Positions 3,006-12,814 of a stretch of DNA of 48,318 nt are shown here, in pieces (the first letter of the stretch is position 1; every line of letters begins with the position of its first letter). Made by a program: the position numbers and the translations under genes. This DNA comes from Sulfuricurvum sp. (GTDB taxonomy: Bacteria > Campylobacterota > Campylobacteria > Campylobacterales > Sulfurimonadaceae). The stretch lies in NCBI GenBank assembly GCA_011391735.1, contig JAABPY010000146.1, positions 1-48,318 of the forward strand, in the 5' to 3' direction. The notes beneath the pieces were generated by a model. That model ran no database searches and was not told where the DNA came from. It worked only from the letters and a program-made list of their open reading frames with translations.

Positions 3006-4047
3006 GGCGACCCCCTTTTTACAAACCCTTCATCTCACCCTCAAAAGTGGTAAAAATCTCAGTGAGGGGCTAAAATTGATGGAAGGGTTTGGCAAGGATA
3101 CGGATGAACATCGGGTGTATGGTGCTATTCGTCAGGATCTACAGCGGGGAATCCCTTTTTCAGAAGCCTTTGGGGCGCATGTCAGTGCTCCGAGGGATAT
3201 TGTCCAGTTTATTGCCATGGCGGAAAAAGGGGCATCTTTTGGGACGATGATTGCACGGATTTTGCATTATTTGGAAATGAAAGAGAGGTTTTACCGTGAA
3301 TCCAACGATAAAATTGCCCTCCCCATCCTCTACTTTATATTATCAACCTTAATTGTCCTTTTTGTCCGTTTTTACGCTATTCCTGACCATATTCACGAAT
3401 CGCTTCAATATGATCCCGCCATTCAAAAGCTTATCGCCGACCATTTGAGTATTGCCCAAACGATGGGGGATGTGTTGTTTGGATTGCTGTTGATGAGCGG
3501 TGCGTATTTTTTGATCGTTATGGTGGCACTGTTTAGCCAAAAAGAGATCATTCAAGGGATGGCTAAACCTGTGGCGTTAATCCTCCCCGTCTCCTCAGAA
3601 CTTCTTCGCTATTTCGAGAAATTTGTCCTCTTAACCCTTTTGGGGGAGATGCTTCAAAACGGAATCTCCTTTAAGAGGGCGATACAAAGTGCCCAACTCT
3701 CTACGGATGTGACGGAGTTTAAAGAGGGGTTTGAGGCAATGGTACAGCGTATTAACCGTGGCGAACATGATCGCTGGAATATCCCCTTTTTTGAAGAGTT
3801 GGAGCAGCGACTGTTGATGGGGGCTGGTTCGATGCACCAAGCAGGTGGCGTGATGGTACAGCTAGCCGAACACGCACGGCTGAATGCCCTTATGTTGGGA
3901 AGCCGTTTTTTTCGTCTTATGAGTGTACTTGCTATTTTGTTAATGGCATTGGCGGTTTTTGTGGAGTTCTTCACCGTCGTTTTGACCCAAGTTTTGATTC
4001 AAAAAGGGATGATTAGTGCCGTTGATGGAGTCCAAAGTGCTTTTTAA
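2995..4047 (+). CDS. GspF/PilC-family inner-membrane platform protein
   Basis: This 350-residue protein matches the GspF/PilC platform that the ATPase acts on. It has two cytoplasmic four-helix-type domains (first around residues 5-110, second around 215-300) separated by hydrophobic segments near 115-130 and 155-180, and a final transmembrane helix near 310-340. That order is typical of the family, although about 400 residues is usual, so the N-terminus is short. Translation begins at a GTG inside the end of the ATPase gene. The end overlaps the pseudopilin gene by 23 bases, so all three are likely translationally coupled. Confidence 0.88.
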   Translation: MKIEATPFLQTLHLTLKSGKNLSEGLKLMEGFGKDTDEHRVYGAIRQDLQRGIPFSEAFGAHVSAPRDIVQFIAMAEKGASFGTMIARILHYLEMKERFYRESNDKIALPILYFILSTLIVLFVRFYAIPDHIHESLQYDPAIQKLIADHLSIAQTMGDVLFGLLLMSGAYFLIVMVALFSQKEIIQGMAKPVALILPVSSELLRYFEKFVLLTLLGEMLQNGISFKRAIQSAQLSTDVTEFKEGFEAMVQRINRGEHDRWNIPFFEELEQRLLMGAGSMHQAGGVMVQLAEHARLNALMLGSRFFRLMSVLAILLMALAVFVEFFTVVLTQVLIQKGMISAVDGVQSAF

Positions 4048-4699
4048 AAAAAGAGGGGGATTTCTCCTTGTAGAGGCGATGATTACGGTGATTATGGCAG
4101 GGGTTATCGCCGCTATATTTAGTGCCATCAGTTATTACACTTATATCCAATCCAATCTTCTCAAGCGACAAAATACAACGATGATCCTTGAAGTGATACG
4201 AAGCCGTTTGTTAGTGTTAGCCCAAAATCCTGATGGGGATGAATACTTTGAGCTACCCAAAGAGACAGCGTCGAACGGTGTTCCTGTGAATGTGGGGATG
4301 GTGAATGATGGATGGGGACGACCGATTCGTTACACCCCTATTGATTTGGTGGGGCTACCTAATGGGGATAGCACTTTAACGAATAATACGACATCGATTT
4401 CACCCAATGAAAATATATTAGGACGATTAATTAGCGGAGGGGAGGATGGAAATATCACTACCACCGCTACCGATGCTGTTGCACAAGGGGATGATGTGAT
4501 GCTGGAAATCGGCATTGGGGAGATGAATCATTATAAGCTCTATGGAGGGTCAGAGATCACAACCCAAACACGAGGCTATAACAGTGCCATTGTTTCAGAC
4601 GTTGAACCAACAAGTCCGATTGAGGGGACGTTGTGGTATGACAAAACAAACAGTATAATGAAAATGTATAAAGCTGGGAGCTGGATTGATCTACCCTAA
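4025..4699 (+). CDS. Type IV prepilin-like (pseudopilin) protein with a C-terminal adhesin-like tail
   Basis: The product is about 224 residues from the ATG at 4025 (a GTG at 4016 is an alternative). It has a short basic leader and a type III signal: cleavage is expected after Gly in RGG-FLLVEAMI, with the conserved Glu at +5 and a hydrophobic helix of about 20 residues. The globular part is unlike a common major pilin. The last 30 residues (EGTLWYDKTNSIMKMY followed by a Gly-Ser-Trp turn) resemble short beta modules at the ends of phage tail fibres and surface adhesins. Co-transcription with the ATPase and platform genes suggests this is the assembled subunit. No prepilin peptidase, secretin or second pilin is in the window. 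Confidence 0.8.
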   Translation: MESKVLFKKRGGFLLVEAMITVIMAGVIAAIFSAISYYTYIQSNLLKRQNTTMILEVIRSRLLVLAQNPDGDEYFELPKETASNGVPVNVGMVNDGWGRPIRYTPIDLVGLPNGDSTLTNNTTSISPNENILGRLISGGEDGNITTTATDAVAQGDDVMLEIGIGEMNHYKLYGGSEITTQTRGYNSAIVSDVEPTSPIEGTLWYDKTNSIMKMYKAGSWIDLP

Positions 4700-4709
4700 G
4701 ATCGGTGCT

Positions 4710-5657
4710 TTACATCTTCTCCAACAAACAGATAAAAAACCCATCAATCGTATCGGTCGGTAATATCCGTACGCCGTTTTGAATCCGCTCGTCATACACC
4801 TCTTTTCCCCATCTTTTTAGAGGCTTTTGAATATTATCGAAAGGCAATATAAGGGGTAACGTCTTCAAATGGTCGCTATGGCGTTCTAATAGATATTGAA
4901 GTGAACTTTCATTTTCTTCGGGAGAGAAAGAACAGGTGGAATAAAGTAATTTCCCCCCTACTTTGAGCGCATCGAATGCGGATAGGAGTAAGCGCCGTTG
5001 GAGCTTGGAGGTCTCTTTGACTTTGTGGATCGACCAAAAGCTCATCGACTTGGGTTCATGGGTTTTGAAACGGGCTTCGGAGGAACACGGGGCATCAAGC
5101 AGTATTCGGTCAAACATCTCGGGGCATTTTTTCCCCACACTTCGCCCATCGGTCATATAGGTATGGGCGTTGGTCACCCCTTGGGATTTGAGGTTGTCAC
5201 ACATTCGGAAAAATCGTTCTCGTGAGAGCTCTACGGCAGAAAGCCACCCTGTGTTTTCCATCATCCCTGCTAACATCAGTGTTTTACCCCCAGGGGCTGC
5301 GGCGAGATCGAGAACCGTCTCTTCAGGTTGGGGCGCGAGTAAAATAGGGGCAATCATCGAGGAGAGGTTTTGGATATAAAGTCTTCCACCGTAAAACGCA
5401 TCGGTTTTGGTAAGGGTGAGTTTATCCTCTGGGGCGATACGGTAGACCCCCTCTAAAAAGGTTGTTTGCCACCCTACTGTCTCAAACGGTATGTTTGCTT
5501 TTGTTAGTTCAGCCTCAAGCTCTTGAGGTGTCGATTTGAGGGTGTTAACGCGAAAGGTGACCTGCTTGGGGGTATCAAATGTTTTGAGGATTGATCCAAA
5601 CTGCTCTGGGGGGACAATTTTTTCCAATCGTTCTTGAAACGCTTCGGGGAGGCTCAT
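4710..5657 (-). CDS. RsmB/NOP-family RNA (cytosine-5) methyltransferase
   Basis: This 315-residue SAM-dependent enzyme belongs to the RsmB/RsmF family that makes 5-methylcytosine in rRNA. The SAM loop reads LDLAAAPGGKT, followed by two catalytic cysteine motifs, DAPCSS and YSTCSFSPEENE. In this family the TCS cysteine is the nucleophile and the PCS cysteine releases the product. The N-terminal 90 residues hold the RNA-contact region (FRVNTLKS). Which ribosomal base it modifies cannot be said. Its ATG overlaps the stop of pcm as ATGA, so it is the last gene of the nrdB operon. Confidence 0.9.
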   Translation of the reverse strand: MSLPEAFQERLEKIVPPEQFGSILKTFDTPKQVTFRVNTLKSTPQELEAELTKANIPFETVGWQTTFLEGVYRIAPEDKLTLTKTDAFYGGRLYIQNLSSMIAPILLAPQPEETVLDLAAAPGGKTLMLAGMMENTGWLSAVELSRERFFRMCDNLKSQGVTNAHTYMTDGRSVGKKCPEMFDRILLDAPCSSEARFKTHEPKSMSFWSIHKVKETSKLQRRLLLSAFDALKVGGKLLYSTCSFSPEENESSLQYLLERHSDHLKTLPLILPFDNIQKPLKRWGKEVYDERIQNGVRILPTDTIDGFFICLLEKM

Positions 5658-6295
5658 CGGATAACTCCATCAAGAATAGGGACAAAATCACACGTTTCGA
5701 GGGGCTCTTCGATGATTTTATTTCCCCTCTTCGTGAAACGGGTAATGATCTGTTGATGCCCTTTTTCCATAGGGGCGATTAAAATCCCCCCCTCTTTGAG
5801 CTGATCGAACAGTTTTTGGGGGATAGCTCGTGCCGAGGCAGAGAATAAAATCCGCTCAAACGGAGCGTATTGCTCCCATCCATTTTGCCCATCATCAGTG
5901 CGGGTGTGAATATTGCCTAGCTTGAGATGGCGAAATCTCTCTTTGGCATCACGTAAGAGGGATTCGATTCTTTCGATGGTAAAAACACGGCGAAAAAGAT
6001 GGGAGAGGACGGCAGCTTGGTAGCCACTACCGCATCCGATTTCCAAGACACTGTCACATCCCTCAGGGGTGAGATACTGGGTCATTTTGGCAACGGTAAG
6101 GGGAGAAGAGATGTACTGCTGTGCCCCGATGGGGAGAGCGTCAAGACGATAGGCATTGTGGCGCATAGCAAGAGGGACAAATGCCTCGCGATTGGTTTGG
6201 ATAAGGGCGTTTTTAATGATGGGACGAAGAACAAACTTTTTGTTAATCTCCTCTGCCATCCGTGTGGTTTTAATAATGGTTACTTTGTCGGTCAC
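5654..6295 (-). CDS. pcm: Protein-L-isoaspartate O-methyltransferase
   Basis: This 213-residue methyltransferase repairs isoaspartate residues in ageing proteins by SAM-dependent carboxyl methylation. Family features are QYISSPLTVAKMTQYL near residue 60, the SAM loop VLEIGCGSGYQAAVL and the acidic strand VFTIERI. The start is a GTG at 6295 that overlaps the stop of the upstream hydrolase as GTGA; an in-frame ATG twelve codons later is the alternative. It overlaps the RsmB-like gene by four bases downstream, indicating tight coupling. Confidence 0.92.
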   Translation of the reverse strand: MTDKVTIIKTTRMAEEINKKFVLRPIIKNALIQTNREAFVPLAMRHNAYRLDALPIGAQQYISSPLTVAKMTQYLTPEGCDSVLEIGCGSGYQAAVLSHLFRRVFTIERIESLLRDAKERFRHLKLGNIHTRTDDGQNGWEQYAPFERILFSASARAIPQKLFDQLKEGGILIAPMEKGHQQIITRFTKRGNKIIEEPLETCDFVPILDGVIR

Positions 6296-7020
6296 GATTT
6301 TATCCCTATATCAAGATAGCGACGCATGGAGCGTACGGTGTGCTCTTCATACATCGAAGTGAGCGCTTCTAAACCATTGTTGCGCAATTCGCTGCCGAAG
6401 GGGTTAATAATTCCGCTCATTCCACTGGTATCCTTATTATGGGCATCACTAGCGACTACGTAACACTCATTCATTACCGCAAGGGCATTGGTGAGAGTAA
6501 GGAAGTGTTCCGTTCGGATCTTCCCCCACTGTGCGGGAATGGCAATAATATCGCACCCCTCTAATTGTTGCCACAACGATTTAAACCGCAATTCAAAACA
6601 AATCAGTATCCCCATTTTGATCCCATTATGGGTGAATTTGAGGATATTCCCCTCTTCCCCTACACTAAAGTGCTCCGTCTCCCCACCAAGGTTAAAGAGC
6701 TTCGCTTTGGCTTGAGCATGGAGTATTGTCCCCTTATGAAGAGCGTAGGCGACATTGTAAAACTGATCGTCGATTTGGGTAATGGCAGTAAAAATGAGGA
6801 GACGATTTCCCACCCAATCACTAAGTTTTTGCAAAGCGATAGAGGTAAAGGCGGCCGCTTCTTCGAAACGATCATAGGCAAATCCCGTTAGACACACCTC
6901 AGGGGCAACAATAATGGCATCCGCAGGGGCTTGCGCTAGAAGCAAAATAAGCTTGGTAAGGTTATTTTCAAAAGAGGTATCGGTGGGGATACAAAGGGAA
7001 ACGATAGGTTTAGAAATCAT
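6292..7020 (-). CDS. Carbon-nitrogen hydrolase (nitrilase superfamily)
   Basis: The 242-residue product has the Glu-Lys-Cys triad of the nitrilase superfamily: Glu in [14 protein letters not shown], Lys in [15 protein letters not shown] and Cys in ILICFELRF. Such enzymes hydrolyse small amides or deaminated glutathione-like compounds in the cytoplasm; the substrate cannot be read from sequence. The ATG at 7020 is chosen because the family's first strand begins there (ISKPIVSLC); upstream in-frame codons lie inside nrdB. It overlaps nrdB by 11 bases and pcm by 4. Confidence 0.88.
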
Positions 7021-8029
7021 CAAAACTAAGGCTTCCCTTGGAGTAGTTCGTGACGGTTCCCTCAAAAAAGTTCGTTTTTTGGTCATTAAACTTCGAAAAA
7101 TCATCGACCCATTTGATGGGATTAGCAACATTATAAAGGGGTTTTAGACCTACGGCATGAAGGCGTACATCAGCGAGATATTGGATGTATTGGGAGACAA
7201 TGTCATTCGTAAGACCCAATATTTGCCCTTGGGTGATGTATTGCCCCCATGCGATTTCTAGTTCCACCGCTTTACGAAACATATCATAGACCTCTTCGAT
7301 AAGCTCTTCGGTAAACAAATCTTTACGCTCTCGTTTGAGCGTGTTGATGATGTTTTGAAACAAAACCAAATGGGTCACTTCGTCCCGTTGGATAAAACGG
7401 ATCATCTGAGCCGACCCTAACATCTTTCCTGAACGAGCTAAGGTATAAATATAGGTAAATCCACTATAAAAATAGATCCCCTCTAAAATCTGATTGGCAA
7501 AACACGCCTTGACAAACGCGCTCTCACTGGGATCATTGGCAAGCTCATCGTAGCGGGCGGCAATGGAGTCGTTTTTGGTTTTGAGCATCATATCTCTACG
7601 CCATAAGTCGTAAATCTCGGCACTATTTTGACTAATGGAGTCCACCATAACGGCATAGCTTTGGGAGTGGAGTGCCTCTTCAAAACTTTGACGTACCAAA
7701 ATTAGATTGATTTCGGGGGCGGTTACGTAGGGGTTGATATTGTCCATCAAGTTGTTTGTTTGGAGACTATCCATAAAAATGAGCTGGGAGAGGGCTTTAT
7801 CGTACGCCGTTTTTTCCATCTCCGTGAGGTATTTGTAATCAACGGCATCACGGGTCATATCGACCTCTTTGGGAAACCATGTGTTGTTGAGCATCATCTC
7901 CCATAGATTATATGCCCATTGGTATTTGATATTGTTAAGCTCAAAAATACCTGTGGGGTTTCCACCAAAAATACGACGGTCGTTCACATGTTCAGAGGAG
8001 TTTGGATTGTATATTTTTTTGCGTTGCAT
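7010..8029 (-). CDS. nrdB: Class I ribonucleotide reductase small subunit
   Basis: The 339-residue protein is the di-metal radical subunit that makes deoxyribonucleotides together with NrdA. Metal ligands are visible in order: Asp in FMDSLQ, Glu and His in EEALHSQSY, Glu in ILEGIYFY, and Glu and His in RDEVTHL. The tyrosine of HSQSY is where the radical tyrosine lies in E. coli NrdB (Y122). The C-terminal SLSFDDF resembles the tail that docks on the large subunit. The nrdA gene is not in this window. It heads the overlapping operon with the hydrolase, pcm and rRNA methyltransferase. The 104-base gap upstream is AT-rich; I saw no NrdR box. Confidence 0.95.
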
Positions 8030-8133
8030 GTGAATAACCTATGTAGTAAAATGGTGAAATGAAGAGTCGCATTATGTCGAAATATAGATTTAGATATGCT
8101 AAAAGTAAAGATTGAATAGCGACATAGAATTTT

Positions 8134-9993
8134 TTATTTTTTGTTACTTTGAAAAAGGGTGATATCTTTGGGGATGCGAAGTCCAAAAGTACTCCCTTCT
8201 CCTTGTTTACTTTTGACAAAAACCGTTCCATGCAGAAGCTCCTCGGTAATCTTTTTGGTGAGGTAGAGCCCCAGACCCGTCCCTCCCGCTTTCACTTTTA
8301 GATGAGATTCAAAGCGTTCAAACGCTTCAAAGAGTTTGGTCTGATCCTCTATATTAATACCGATACCGTTGTCGGTAACGCTGATTTTGATCTCTCCTTC
8401 TTCCTCTTCGATTTGTAAGATGATCGTGCCACTTTGATCCGTAAATTTCACCGCATTGCTCAGGAAATTGAGGAGGCACTGATAGAGGCGCCGCCGGTCG
8501 CTTTGCATCGAAATATCCTCCCCCATCTCAACAGTAACAAAAAGCCCTTTGGGATTGGCGACCACCTCTATCTCCTCTTTTGCCTCACGGAGCAGTTCTT
8601 TCAAAGAAAATGTCGTTACGACTGCTTCAATGCGCCCCGCTTCGATCTTGGAGATGTCGATGACATCGGAAATCAGTGAAAGGAGGTGCTGCCCCGCTAA
8701 TTTCACTCGAGAGAGATACTCTGTTTGTTTCTCATTGATCTCACCTGTCAGCCCTTGTAAAATGATCCCCGTAAAACCGATGATAGAGTTAAGGGGGGTT
8801 CGAAGTTCATGGCTCATAGAGGCGATGAACATCGACTTGAGCTGATCCAGTTCTTTTAGCTTACGGTTGGCTTCGAGTAATTCATCTGTCCGTCTTGTAA
8901 CTTCAGATTCAAGCATTTCATTTGAGGCTTCTAACTTTGAGTGAATCTGAATCAACTCCATAGCCATTGTATTAAAATGGTCTGCCAACTCCCCTATCTC
9001 ATTATGATTATGAAAAGGGAGGGGCTCATGGATGCCCTTTACTCTAAAATTTTTAAGGGCATCTCCTATTTTTCTGATCGGTTCCATAACCGTATTGGAG
9101 ATATAAAAGAAGAGTATGACTATCGCCAAGATCATTATTATTATAACCATTGTGATGACGATGATCTGATTGAAAAAGGGGGCGATGATTGCATCATGAG
9201 TCATATTGGTTATTAACTTAAATCGTTGCTTCTGAAGGTTAAAAGTCTCTATATGGGAGTAGACCTTTTGACCAAAAATATCTTTTTGAAATCCTTCGTG
9301 TGTAATAGATGAGAGGGTACTAGCAAGGACAATAGAGGGATTTTTATGGGCAACAATACGCCCTTTTGAATCGGTTAGATAAATATCCGTCCCCTCTGAC
9401 AATTTTAGATCTGCAAATAGCCCCCACACTGGTTTTAGTCGTACTTTAGCAATAATGACACCTAAATTTTCTTTGGTGACTATGTCGTATATCGGATAGG
9501 CGATCGTGATTAAAGGCTCATCAATCTCTGAATCGTTGTAAATTTTGGAGTAATAGAAGGTACCGCTTTGTGCAGGAATGGTATAAACATCATCACGAAA
9601 GAGCTCCTCTTTTGTGGCTTCATGCGTAAGATTTTTATTACTTACGCTTATCATTATGTCATCTTTTTTACTCAAATAGATGACCGAGGTAAAATATTTT
9701 CGGTTTGCAAGAAGCAAATAGAGGGTACGTCTCTTCTCTGTCTCGTTTAAAGTGGTGAAGTTCTGATATCGATTCACACTTTCCATCAGATGCTCTATTG
9801 TGGAGAAATAGGTCTCCACCTCCAGAAGTACTCTCGCACTTAACTCTGTTTGAAAAAGGGCAATAGTATGCAATCGTGTAGTATAGTTTTGCCCTATAAC
9901 GATGATACCTGCAAAAAAGACAGGTAGGATCGAAAAGAGTAAAAAAGCGACAATGATTTTCGGGCGCAGCCCCCATATCGGACTATGATTCAT
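8134..9993 (-). CDS. Membrane sensor histidine kinase with periplasmic Cache-like domain
   Basis: This 619-residue kinase has a first membrane helix at about residues 12-34, a periplasmic region to about 270 that looks like a double Cache sensor (YFTSVIYLSKKDD, ITIAYPIYD, GTDIYLTDSKGRIVAH), a second helix near 275-298, HAMP, a coiled coil, HisKA with the phosphorylated histidine in SMSHELRTP (about H395), and a HATPase domain (NAVKFTD, DNGIG, GGTGLGLYL). No response regulator lies beside it. It starts two bases after the stop of the solute-binding protein gene, so that protein is a likely partner in ligand sensing. It is the last gene of the cytochrome c-porin-binding protein-kinase run. Confidence 0.92.
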   Translation of the reverse strand: MNHSPIWGLRPKIIVAFLLFSILPVFFAGIIVIGQNYTTRLHTIALFQTELSARVLLEVETYFSTIEHLMESVNRYQNFTTLNETEKRRTLYLLLANRKYFTSVIYLSKKDDIMISVSNKNLTHEATKEELFRDDVYTIPAQSGTFYYSKIYNDSEIDEPLITIAYPIYDIVTKENLGVIIAKVRLKPVWGLFADLKLSEGTDIYLTDSKGRIVAHKNPSIVLASTLSSITHEGFQKDIFGQKVYSHIETFNLQKQRFKLITNMTHDAIIAPFFNQIIVITMVIIIMILAIVILFFYISNTVMEPIRKIGDALKNFRVKGIHEPLPFHNHNEIGELADHFNTMAMELIQIHSKLEASNEMLESEVTRRTDELLEANRKLKELDQLKSMFIASMSHELRTPLNSIIGFTGIILQGLTGEINEKQTEYLSRVKLAGQHLLSLISDVIDISKIEAGRIEAVVTTFSLKELLREAKEEIEVVANPKGLFVTVEMGEDISMQSDRRRLYQCLLNFLSNAVKFTDQSGTIILQIEEEEGEIKISVTDNGIGINIEDQTKLFEAFERFESHLKVKAGGTGLGLYLTKKITEELLHGTVFVKSKQGEGSTFGLRIPKDITLFQSNKK

Positions 9994-9995
9994 TT

Positions 9996-10976
9996 TTACT
10001 CTTTGATGACATGATCTGCCTGCTTGATACTGTATTCAGGAAGTTTAAGACCAATTTTTTTCGCCGTTGCGCCATTGAGGATGAATTGGTTCTCTGCAAG
10101 TTCTACCGGAATTTTATCCGCTGGTATGCCGCTGAATATCTGATGCACCATTCTCCCCGCTTGTTGGCCCAACTCATAGTGAACATGACCGTAGCTAAAG
10201 AGAGCCCCTTTTTCGACTTGTAGAAAACTTGGGACGCTTAGAGGAATTTTGTGCGCAAGAGTGTAGTGTACAAAAGGCTCAATACGGCTCTCCATCCGAC
10301 TGTCGCGCGGTATAAAGATGGCATCAGAACCTTTGGCAAAGGTGAGAATAGTTCGAGCCTCATCGGATTCAAGAAATCCCTTGAGATGAAGCGTTATCCC
10401 CAAATTTTTTGCTATGGGTGTAATCTGCTCTATGCTAGCAAGTGCCCCTTTGTCATCAAACGTATAGGGTACATACAGACTCTGTAAATCGGGTACGAGC
10501 TCTTTAAACCATTTTAGCCGTTGATCCTCTCCATTGACAAGTTTGACCCCCGTAATATTTGCCCCTGGCTTTTTTAAACTCTCCACCAAACCAGCAGCGA
10601 CTGGATCACTCACGGGGCAGAAGAGAATGGGAATTTTGCTATTGCCAAATTCCTTTTTAATAGCAATAGCTGCTGGCGTACTGGAAACGAAAATAAGATC
10701 AAGGTGATTTTTTCTCAGACTTTCAACGCGCTTTTGAAAATTTTCTTCCATATTCACGATCGGACCGTCATAATAATAACGGATATTATCCCCTTCATGA
10801 TAGTTTAATTCAGAGAGCTTCTCTTTCAAGCCCTTGATTGTCATATTATCAACCTCTGTCAGACTCACAATTCCTACGTTATACTGCTTTTGAGAGGGGG
10901 TACTCTTCTCTATTAAAAAAAACGTGCCCGCTATGACGATACTGATAATAAGAACGGTAATAAATTTATACAACAT
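9996..10976 (-). CDS. Membrane-anchored substrate-binding protein (TrpX/ABC_sub_bind family), no transporter nearby
   Basis: The 326-residue protein has one N-terminal hydrophobic segment (residues 4-22) without a lipobox, so it is either secreted or anchored in the inner membrane. The rest matches the TrpX-like ABC substrate-binding family: YNVGIVSLTEVDN at the mature N-terminus, DLIFVSSTPAAIAIKK, IPILFCPVSDPVAAGLV and a C-terminal YELGQQAGRMVHQIFSG. Relatives bind aromatic amino acids or other small ligands. No permease or ATPase gene accompanies it. GGGAGG ahead of the ATG gives a strong ribosome site. The adjoining sensor kinase suggests it presents a ligand to that kinase, which is inference. 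Confidence 0.85.
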   Translation of the reverse strand: MLYKFITVLIISIVIAGTFFLIEKSTPSQKQYNVGIVSLTEVDNMTIKGLKEKLSELNYHEGDNIRYYYDGPIVNMEENFQKRVESLRKNHLDLIFVSSTPAAIAIKKEFGNSKIPILFCPVSDPVAAGLVESLKKPGANITGVKLVNGEDQRLKWFKELVPDLQSLYVPYTFDDKGALASIEQITPIAKNLGITLHLKGFLESDEARTILTFAKGSDAIFIPRDSRMESRIEPFVHYTLAHKIPLSVPSFLQVEKGALFSYGHVHYELGQQAGRMVHQIFSGIPADKIPVELAENQFILNGATAKKIGLKLPEYSIKQADHVIKE

Positions 10977-10997
10977 AGCTTAAACCTCCCTCTCAAA

Positions 10998-12311
10998 TTA
11001 AAAATCATATCGGAAACGCATTTTGTATTGTTCCAGATTGTTGGGTTGATTTTGTTCATTTTTGCGCATAAGATGGGCATACTCAAATCCGACAAGAGCA
11101 TTTGGTATGGGGATCCACATGAGATTGATATGCTCTGAATCGGCTTTTTTACTGACGGTAGTAGGGAGAGTAGCGCAATTGTTATCGGCCCCGCTCATAT
11201 TGTACGCCACGGTTGAATGGAGGGTATCATTCCACCCGTGGCGATAGGCAATGTTTGCTCCGTATGAATCCTGCAAATCGATATTGCCAGATGCATCGAC
11301 AGATCCGCCGTTGTACGTCCCTTCAGCAAAATAACGCCCTAATGCATTACCGTATTGGAATCCTAAAATGATGTCATCCCGCTCTGCTACGGCTATTTTG
11401 GCAGAGGTATTAACTCCCCATCCGTACACTTCGTCACTGTTGGGTAATACCGTACCGTTTACCGTCGCATGATCTTGGCGGAGTTGGCGCAGAATCACAG
11501 CCGCCGCTAGGTCGCCCCAATCCGAATGGTATTGAACTCGTGCGGCAAAATCGGGAAATCGATCATCCTCAGGTAAAACCCGTGCCCCTGTGTAGTCCGT
11601 CAGAGTACTCTCTGGATTTTCCATAGAGAAATCATAATGAAACGTAGCATTACCATCCCCCCAGCTCAAAAGAGGCTGTCTGGCATAGACCTCATTGACT
11701 GGATCGATAATCAGATCTGGTGTATAGAGTGTGGTAAAAAGTGAATAAGTCTGCCCCAAAGTAAAACCGTTTAGCGTTACGTATGCATTTCGCAATCTTG
11801 GTGCATGGGAGTTCGTATTTCTCTCATTACCCGTCCCACTCCAGAAATCCACTTCAATCAAACTTCGTAATACGCCAAGATCAGTGGGGGTTTGCGTTTT
11901 AAACCAAAGGCGACTGTCTCGTGCATTGGCACTCAGTTGTTTCGCCTCCCCCTCAACCGCAGGTTTGTACGCAGCATCAAAAAAAACGCCTACATCCGGA
12001 TCACTGAGATAGGTATTAAACTCTATGCGTCCCCCCAGTGTCATGGTTGTATCATTGGAACTTAGTTCTACAATCCCTTTATGGGTATGATATTGCCCAT
12101 CTTGGGGGGGTGAGTCCACCAAAGGAGCCGTATTTTTTTGAGCTGGCACAATTTTTGTAGCAGATCCTTGCTGTTGCTCAAGTTGTTCAATACGCTTTAT
12201 CATTTGTAGCGACATCTGACGTAGCTCACTGAGTTCTTTTTCAATATCACTTTGTCCACAAAGGGGAGATACCATCAGCAAACTGATCAATGACAGATTG
12301 ATTTTTTTCAC
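10998..12311 (-). CDS. DcaP-like outer-membrane porin
   Basis: A GTG at 12311 opens a 437-residue protein with a signal peptide (KKINLSLISLLMVSPLCG), a short coiled coil (residues about 22-50, IEKELSELRQMSLQMIKRIEQLEQQ region) and a beta-barrel ending in RFRYDF. The block VDFWSGTGNERNTNSHAPRLRNAYV and the GQTYSLF strand are typical of the DcaP trimeric porin family, which uses an N-terminal coiled coil for trimer formation. An upstream in-frame reading would overlap the cytochrome c gene and lacks signal-peptide logic. The substrate is unknown; DcaP relatives take up dicarboxylates and similar organic anions. Confidence 0.82.
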   Translation of the reverse strand: MKKINLSLISLLMVSPLCGQSDIEKELSELRQMSLQMIKRIEQLEQQQGSATKIVPAQKNTAPLVDSPPQDGQYHTHKGIVELSSNDTTMTLGGRIEFNTYLSDPDVGVFFDAAYKPAVEGEAKQLSANARDSRLWFKTQTPTDLGVLRSLIEVDFWSGTGNERNTNSHAPRLRNAYVTLNGFTLGQTYSLFTTLYTPDLIIDPVNEVYARQPLLSWGDGNATFHYDFSMENPESTLTDYTGARVLPEDDRFPDFAARVQYHSDWGDLAAAVILRQLRQDHATVNGTVLPNSDEVYGWGVNTSAKIAVAERDDIILGFQYGNALGRYFAEGTYNGGSVDASGNIDLQDSYGANIAYRHGWNDTLHSTVAYNMSGADNNCATLPTTVSKKADSEHINLMWIPIPNALVGFEYAHLMRKNEQNQPNNLEQYKMRFRYDF

Positions 12312-12322
12312 ACCCACCCCCC

Positions 12323-12814
12323 CTACTGAATTTTTGGGCCGTTTGGATTGAACTGCGCATGACATCTGTTGCAGGTTTTCGTCATATTTTGGATCTCTTC
12401 ATTGAGTGCTTTCATGTTATAGGTTGAAGCGATACTCTTGATATTGTCTCCATGGAGTCTCAACTGATCTGCCAGACTCAAAAAATCCCCCCTCTTTTCC
12501 AAAGTATTAAAACGCTCGTGGTCGTCCTCTTGGGGATATTTTTTAATCTCTTGTGAGAGAGTCATTAATGTAGCTGAGAGTTTATAGGCATAACGTTGCC
12601 TCTGCTCATCACGCTCCAGTTCACTTTTATGACGTTCATACAAGACACTGCTCATATCCTGCATCACTCTTTTTATATGTTTACTGCCTTCGATATGCGG
12701 TTGTCCTTTGGCTCCACCTTGCATTGCAACTTGCGGTTCTTTTGTACACCCTGAAAAGAGTGTAGCTACGGTTATAGCCAATATCAAGCTGATCACTTTT
12801 CCCTTTGTCCACAT
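12323..12814 (-). CDS. Cytochrome c lipoprotein with C-terminal haem site
   Basis: This 163-residue protein has a lipoprotein signal with lipobox LFSGC at about residues 19-23, then a mainly helical, charged body and a single CNRCH haem c site near the C-terminus. A haem motif at the end of a four-helix body is the layout of cytochrome c'-type proteins. It is expected to be membrane-tethered in the periplasm. It is the first gene of the run that continues with the porin (12-base gap), the solute-binding protein and the sensor kinase. Its role there could be redox sensing or electron transfer; the sequence does not decide. Confidence 0.8.
   Translation of the reverse strand: MWTKGKVISLILAITVATLFSGCTKEPQVAMQGGAKGQPHIEGSKHIKRVMQDMSSVLYERHKSELERDEQRQRYAYKLSATLMTLSQEIKKYPQEDDHERFNTLEKRGDFLSLADQLRLHGDNIKSIASTYNMKALNEEIQNMTKTCNRCHAQFNPNGPKIQ

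Follow-up and report, generated by a model that had tools for sequence, protein, structure and literature searches.

The window analysed here is the whole 48,318-nucleotide stretch of a Sulfuricurvum sp. contig (JAABPY010000146.1, assembly GCA_011391735.1), which is part of a 2.14-Mb metagenome-assembled genome (MAG) that is 85% complete. Four consecutive open reading frames (ORFs) on its minus strand encode a cytochrome c lipoprotein, a DcaP-family porin, a PF04392 binding protein and a sensor histidine kinase, in that order. The genes are tightly spaced, with junctions of 11 (using the GTG start of the porin), 21 and 2 bases, and the block is flanked by a mechanosensitive-channel gene and the gene for the ribonucleotide reductase small chain (nrdB). 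An earlier interpretation, made from the letters alone (the sequence-only reading), took these genes for one sensory set. The identities it assigned were recovered at this place by ORF and Pfam analysis, the cytochrome c' profile falling just below its cut-off. Its gene order also stood, with the porin and a cytochrome carrying a lipobox cysteine upstream of the binding protein, whose stop codon ends two bases before the ATG of the kinase. The features, in coordinates of the window, are the following.

12323..12814, minus strand: class-II-type cytochrome c lipoprotein, 163 aa, first gene of the block (Pfam, model, alignments)
12359..12373, minus strand: haem-binding motif CNRCH of the cytochrome, residues 148-152; C, C and H kept in 18/18 alignment rows
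10998..12311, minus strand: DcaP-family porin, likely GTG start at 12311, mechanical ORF start at 12365 (Pfam, model)
9996..10976, minus strand: PF04392 binding protein, 326 aa, with hydrophobic N-terminal anchor (Pfam, hydropathy)
8134..9993, minus strand: sensor histidine kinase, 619 aa (Pfam)
9277..9822, minus strand: periplasmic dCache domain of the kinase, residues 58-239 (dCache_1 74.6 bits, cut-off 45)
8950..9102, minus strand: HAMP domain of the kinase, residues 298-348 (Pfam, over cut-off)
8635..8838, minus strand: HisKA domain of the kinase, residues 386-453 (Pfam, over cut-off), phospho-acceptor His395 by motif
8164..8499, minus strand: HATPase_c domain of the kinase, residues 499-610 (Pfam, over cut-off)

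Terminator-like sites were sought on the strand of the block and none was seen. Because of this and the short junctions, the four genes are probably co-transcribed as one operon in this genome. Two further lines of evidence were rejected: base composition, with a GC content of 38-46% for the four genes and for both halves of the kinase vs 42.5% for the window, and promoter-like matches, of which 16 were observed vs 11.1 ± 4.0 in shuffled sequences. In congeners, the binding protein was found in 0/40 genomes, as was a full-length match to the porin (partial matches of at most 26 bits occurred in 15). A nitrilase gene adjoining nrdB was common to 28 of 29 congener loci, and none of these 29, from 29 of the 40 congeners, had the kinase beside nrdB (L073 has no flank there and L081 has ∼700 bases).

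The porin scored over the Pfam cut-offs of both Porin_2 (58.5 bits, cut-off 22) and DcaP (40.2 bits, cut-off 27). Its model showed 16 long strands by our own count and an N-terminal helix (mean predicted local distance difference test, pLDDT, 76), with DcaP of Acinetobacter (6eus, E 6.3e-23) as best solved match. It therefore resembles the DcaP porins in Pfam family and, as modelled, in its 16-stranded barrel and N-terminal periplasmic helix. The ATG at 12365 overlaps the cytochrome gene; the GTG at 12311 is more likely the start, as an ordinary signal peptide results from it (judged by eye).

The cytochrome scored 26.3 bits against the Pfam cytochrome c' profile (PF01322), just below the cut-off of 26.5. 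The cysteine of the lipobox was invariant in an alignment of eight rows, and the predicted structure was a four-helix bundle (mean pLDDT 81). A CxxCH motif near the C-terminus within such a bundle, as found here, is the character by which class II cytochromes c (c', c-556) are recognized. The family of the window differs from these in being mostly lipoprotein, in its Pfam score, in a conserved His40 (16/18) and in an ER..SELERD stretch present in most of its Campylobacterota members. Foldseek searches with the cytochrome model returned nothing under E 0.001. With VIA, the best Z was 10.1, which is below the caution level of ∼13 for helical bundles, and the unrelated Dps reached 9.3; the structural matches, bundles of the c' and b562 types, are no stronger than chance likeness between helical proteins can be.

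Order-level searches were carried out on samples of 398 or 298 genomes from a larger group. Among 298 genomes, the porin had six matches besides the window genome, and in all six a cytochrome of the same family lay directly upstream. A scan of named genomes yielded 24 porin loci, 19 of them with the cytochrome upstream on the same strand, overlapping the porin or within ∼60 bases of it (137 bases in L113). The other five were a locus whose contig begins inside the porin (L121) and four distant porins without the cytochrome (L123-L126). In L106 only the end of the cytochrome is present. Two of the six order-level loci duplicated records among the 19 and were counted once. Hosts of the pair included Sulfuricurvum, Sulfurimonas, bins of Helicobacteraceae and Campylobacteraceae, Thiomargarita, Mariprofundus, other Gammaproteobacteria and Nitrospinota. 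On a Methylomagnum plasmid (L097, 5950-10053), the cytochrome and a DcaP porin are directly followed by a chemoreceptor whose sensor domain is of the 4HB type. The porin matched 17 plasmid records; of five examined, four had no such cytochrome beside DcaP, and in this respect the porin of the window differs from those DcaP porins.

Divergence of the two proteins was compared by a Mantel test on the distances of 18 cytochromes and their 18 porins, giving r 0.93, a value that none of 9999 permutations reached; the fit was helped by five close Nitrospinota rows. A tree built from 30 porins had a branch, supported at 95/93, with 21 of the 22 paired porins on the same side. The remaining one, from Methylomagnum, grouped with porins lacking the cytochrome, so that the tree does not establish one origin for all pairs. 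The Sulfurimonas porin of L113 (6788-8119) was excluded from these comparisons; it is split over two successive frames and is therefore a broken gene or a sequencing error. On these comparisons, cytochrome and porin appear to evolve as a unit and to be a gene pair of its own. No description of such a pair was found in the open-access literature, which may represent a so far unrecognised type of porin-cytochrome; it is the more novel part of the block, with a function that is predicted only.

The neighbours of the pair bear on the proposal that all four genes constitute one ligand- or redox-gated sensory device, in which the porin admits the signal and the cytochrome feeds redox state to the kinase. 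Tight spacing on a single strand lacking terminator-like sites would suit such a device, and two of the 24 distinct pair loci besides the window have another sensor as immediate neighbour: L110 with a hybrid kinase upstream, and the Methylomagnum plasmid with the chemoreceptor downstream. A signalling gene of some kind was present in four of the 24, non-adjacent in L109 and L066. In the other direction, the profiles used identified no sensor among the neighbours examined in 22 of the 24 loci, and these neighbours varied from locus to locus. Neither the binding protein nor the dCache sensor was found in any of the 24 (available stretches, some short), and the one other genome with a comparable binding protein and kinase (G131, see below) has no cytochrome-porin pair adjoining them. 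We therefore judge a single four-gene device improbable. As a conserved set, the four genes were rejected: the check that the sequence-only reading had proposed, a search for the same order elsewhere, found the cytochrome-porin pair without the other two genes in 24/24 loci, over the stretches available, which is the lack of conservation that it had itself named as refuting. For redox gating of the kinase, the only support is that the genes adjoin each other in the window genome.

The L110 locus (3600-11487), from the Sulfurimonadaceae bin BB10, has a PAS hybrid kinase as the gene directly upstream of the pair, and also contains a second hybrid kinase and several receivers.

Met51 of the cytochrome was kept in 17/18 rows; the cytochrome of L066, which is outside this count, also lacks it. 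A methionine in this helix is known as the sixth (axial) ligand of low-spin c-556 carriers rather than of gas-binding c'. A plausible alternative, if short of probable, is that the cytochrome binds nitric oxide or CO as a gas-binding c' or has a general stress function, and that it merely shares an operon with a nutrient porin and has no joint action with it. The weak match to the c' profile agrees with it, as do the DcaP genes on the four plasmids without an adjoining cytochrome and the link of DcaP porins to carboxylic acid use drawn in the accessible part of one study (PMC12338516). It fits less well with the joint occurrence of the pair in at least three phyla and the matching divergence of its two proteins, and with the near-constant Met51, if this residue acts as a ligand here.

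A more specific form of joint action would be a two-protein porin-cytochrome. In it, the class-II haem protein would dock at the coiled-coil mouth of a 16-stranded DcaP trimer and exchange electrons with small solutes passing through, as a split analogue of Cyc2 in lithotrophs of several phyla; the sensor gained in this genome may then report the same solute. We regard this as a speculative and rather unlikely version. Cyc2 is the nearest known idea. In it, as described in the available portion of PMC8406198, one haem is combined with a 16-stranded porin in a single fused protein. The window has two separate proteins, its cytochrome is a four-helix protein instead of a short N-terminal domain, and its barrel is of the DcaP type. 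The likeness as far as that portion goes is at most one of working principle, and Fe(II) oxidation is not part of the role predicted for the pair.

Should the pair act jointly, bacteria of at least three phyla would share an outer-membrane redox unit far smaller than the MtrAB type and built unlike Cyc2. The genera carrying it include sulfur, iron and nitrite oxidisers. If true, the short cytochrome-porin gene pair could serve as a genomic marker for such a unit. The pair is the part of the block worth following.

The second half of the block starts with the binding protein, which scored 153.7 bits for PF04392 (cut-off 25.9) and has solved relatives in the PDB (3lft, 6hni, 3lkv). Its N-terminus is hydrophobic, with a 19-residue mean of up to 2.48, and in both the window and G131 proteins this start lacks the cleavage-site-like end of the transporter versions (judged by eye); the protein is probably membrane-anchored. 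A search in 398 genomes of the order gave eight with a match, the window genome included. Three are true transporters with a permease adjacent (G408, G390, G286), three are weak (E 2.7e-5 to 9.2e-4), and G131 is the best besides the window genome. A scan of named-genome contigs with the binding protein alone found no relative. Plasmid records matching it numbered 142; the one examined had a second binding protein adjoining and no kinase within 4 kb. In G092, a 728-aa protein (L023, 4853-7686) with a weak PF04392-like stretch stands beside a response-regulator-like gene (by eye) and may be a fusion of binding protein and sensor.

No permease or ATPase gene adjoins the binding protein of the window, as the sequence-only reading had noted. 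The permease of PF04392 transporters had no match in the window genome or in G131, a weak negative since one permease type was sought and the window MAG is 85% complete. These results, together with a score of 159.4 bits against the NCBIfam TrpX equivalog, far from its cut-off of 390, count against the view that the protein is a remnant of an ATP-binding cassette (ABC) importer for aromatic amino acids, or still serves one, and stands before the kinase by chance. So does the kinase that is likewise its neighbour in G131. In favour of an importer are the transporter loci of G408, G390 and G286 and, in the part of PMC6816091 that was available, solved relatives that bind Tyr, Phe or Trp. Two residues are said there to set this choice; by our own alignment mapping they correspond to Ser250 and His266 in the window. 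Because both differ, the ligand is probably not Tyr, Phe or Trp. Although it belongs to the same family as the aromatic amino acid importers CD0873 and TrpX, the protein differs from them in these two positions and in having no permease or ATPase. A plain importer for aromatic amino acids was rejected on these grounds, and we give the importer-derived alternative as a whole little weight.

Among 398 genomes of the order, G131 was also the best match to the dCache half of the kinase (56 bits) besides the window genome. In G131 the binding-protein gene is followed by the kinase gene, the two overlapping by 11 bases. The sensor halves of the window and G131 kinases are 24% identical (E 4e-18), the latter scoring 35 bits for dCache_1, short of the 45-bit cut-off. 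PAS domains are present in the G131 kinase, and its catalytic half differs from that of the window kinase. Since both genes are adjacent there with another catalytic half, binding protein and dCache sensor, as judged from sequence, stay together while the transmitter differs, in these two cases. The G131 genes lie downstream of cbb3 oxidase-like genes with CxxCH proteins (L018, 3103-11155; by eye).

Kinases activated by a binding protein are an established kind, represented by LuxP-LuxQ, TorT-TorS and XylFII-LytS in the accessible text of PMC6321045. The window resembles these, as portrayed there, in a binding-protein gene that adjoins a kinase with a periplasmic sensor domain, of which G131 provides a second case, and no transporter genes stand beside it in the window. 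The permease usual for PF04392 proteins had no match in either genome. This supports binding protein and kinase as a putative indirect sensor of the LuxP/LuxQ or TorT/TorS kind. The ligand-gated kinase foreseen in the sequence-only reading is borne out to this extent. Differences are the PF04392 (TrpX/CD0873) family of the binding protein, its probable membrane anchor, a non-adjacent regulator and a contact that is predicted only. The sensor itself would be ordinary, an additional member of this kind using a PF04392 protein.

No receiver domain was matched in the kinase by Pfam, and its output was sought through its relatives. Three kinases in tandem on contig C200 of the same genome share 67%, 65% and 52% identity with the transmitter; further transmitter-like pieces lie on C28 (61%) and C43 (63%). 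Within the genus, transmitter matches at E 1e-50 or better were obtained in 3/41 genomes, namely the window genome, G019 and G028. Downstream of their tandem kinases, G019 and G028 both encode a lone receiver and a receiver-HD (REC-HD) protein. In the window genome this receiver is spread over two contig ends, that of C200 with residues 1-42 and that of C214 with residues 39-125; next to it on C214 is a protein 88.5% identical over 358 residues to the REC-HD protein of G019. In the DHp domain, C200 kinases 1 and 3 agree with the window kinase at 61 and 60 of 74 positions and kinase 2 at 45; for ten other kinases of the genome outside the family, the agreement was 18-23, an ungapped count that understates kinases with shorter loops. 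The transmitter tree supports its key split at 88/98; three of its sequences were each entered twice as separate rows, and one long outlying row, L047, falls within the group. Because the window transmitter is paralogous to the C200 kinases, phosphotransfer to the lone receiver and the REC-HD protein is predicted; one or both of them (C200, C214) are most likely the output of the window kinase, as best candidates. An output encoded elsewhere, as had been supposed, thus has specific candidates. HD proteins of the REC-HD type are known to break down cyclic di-GMP.

The tandem arrays on C200 (L009), G019:C19 (L161) and G028:C4 (L162) contain two to five kinases. Their catalytic halves are nearly identical and their sensor halves differ, one of the latter carrying a CxxCH haem motif. 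By their sequences, the arrays represent sensor swapping on a shared transmitter.

Taken together, the gene order, the protein families, the conservation of the pair, the second case of a binding protein with a dCache sensor and the lack of the four-gene order in the loci examined favour a block of two modules side by side, cytochrome-porin and binding protein-kinase, which we consider a reasonably likely account. In this arrangement, the binding protein, tethered in the inner membrane, would bind a small molecule. It would touch the periplasmic dCache domain of the kinase and so set kinase activity. Phosphate would pass to a regulator whose gene lies outside the block; the likeliest recipients are those at the end of the paralogous kinase cluster, the lone receiver, the REC-HD protein or both. 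The haem lipoprotein and DcaP porin would form an independent outer-membrane unit, with the monohaem cytochrome on the periplasmic side of the porin, where it would probably perform a redox step on or beside solutes entering through it.

Several points weigh against this account. All four genes do stand together in the window genome. The binding protein-dCache pair was found in only one other genome (G131) among 398 of the order, and the dCache query weakly matches 18 further genomes (at most 31 bits), including G286, which has a true PF04392 transporter on another contig. With the MAG 85% complete, a transporter could be missing. On the output side, paralogy with the C200 kinases is no proof that they share a regulator, 75 receiver-like matches occur in the genome, and many unrelated kinases have the same residues at the three helix-1 positions compared, which are uninformative.

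The interest of the kinase side lies in a sensor unit of binding protein and dCache domain that is kept while the transmitter differs, and in a named candidate regulator, which makes the pathway directly testable.

Elsewhere in the window (30626-23831), a TonB receptor, a DUF4154 (YfiR/HmsC-like) protein, a CHASE8 hybrid kinase and a REC-HD protein are encoded in a row. The sequence-only reading held that the four-gene block repeats the design of this cluster. The cluster is real, and its gene content reads as an outer membrane-periplasm-kinase-output chain of a design like that of the block; because its proteins come from other families, the likeness does not go beyond design. The CHASE8 hybrid kinase carries two receivers and an Hpt domain.

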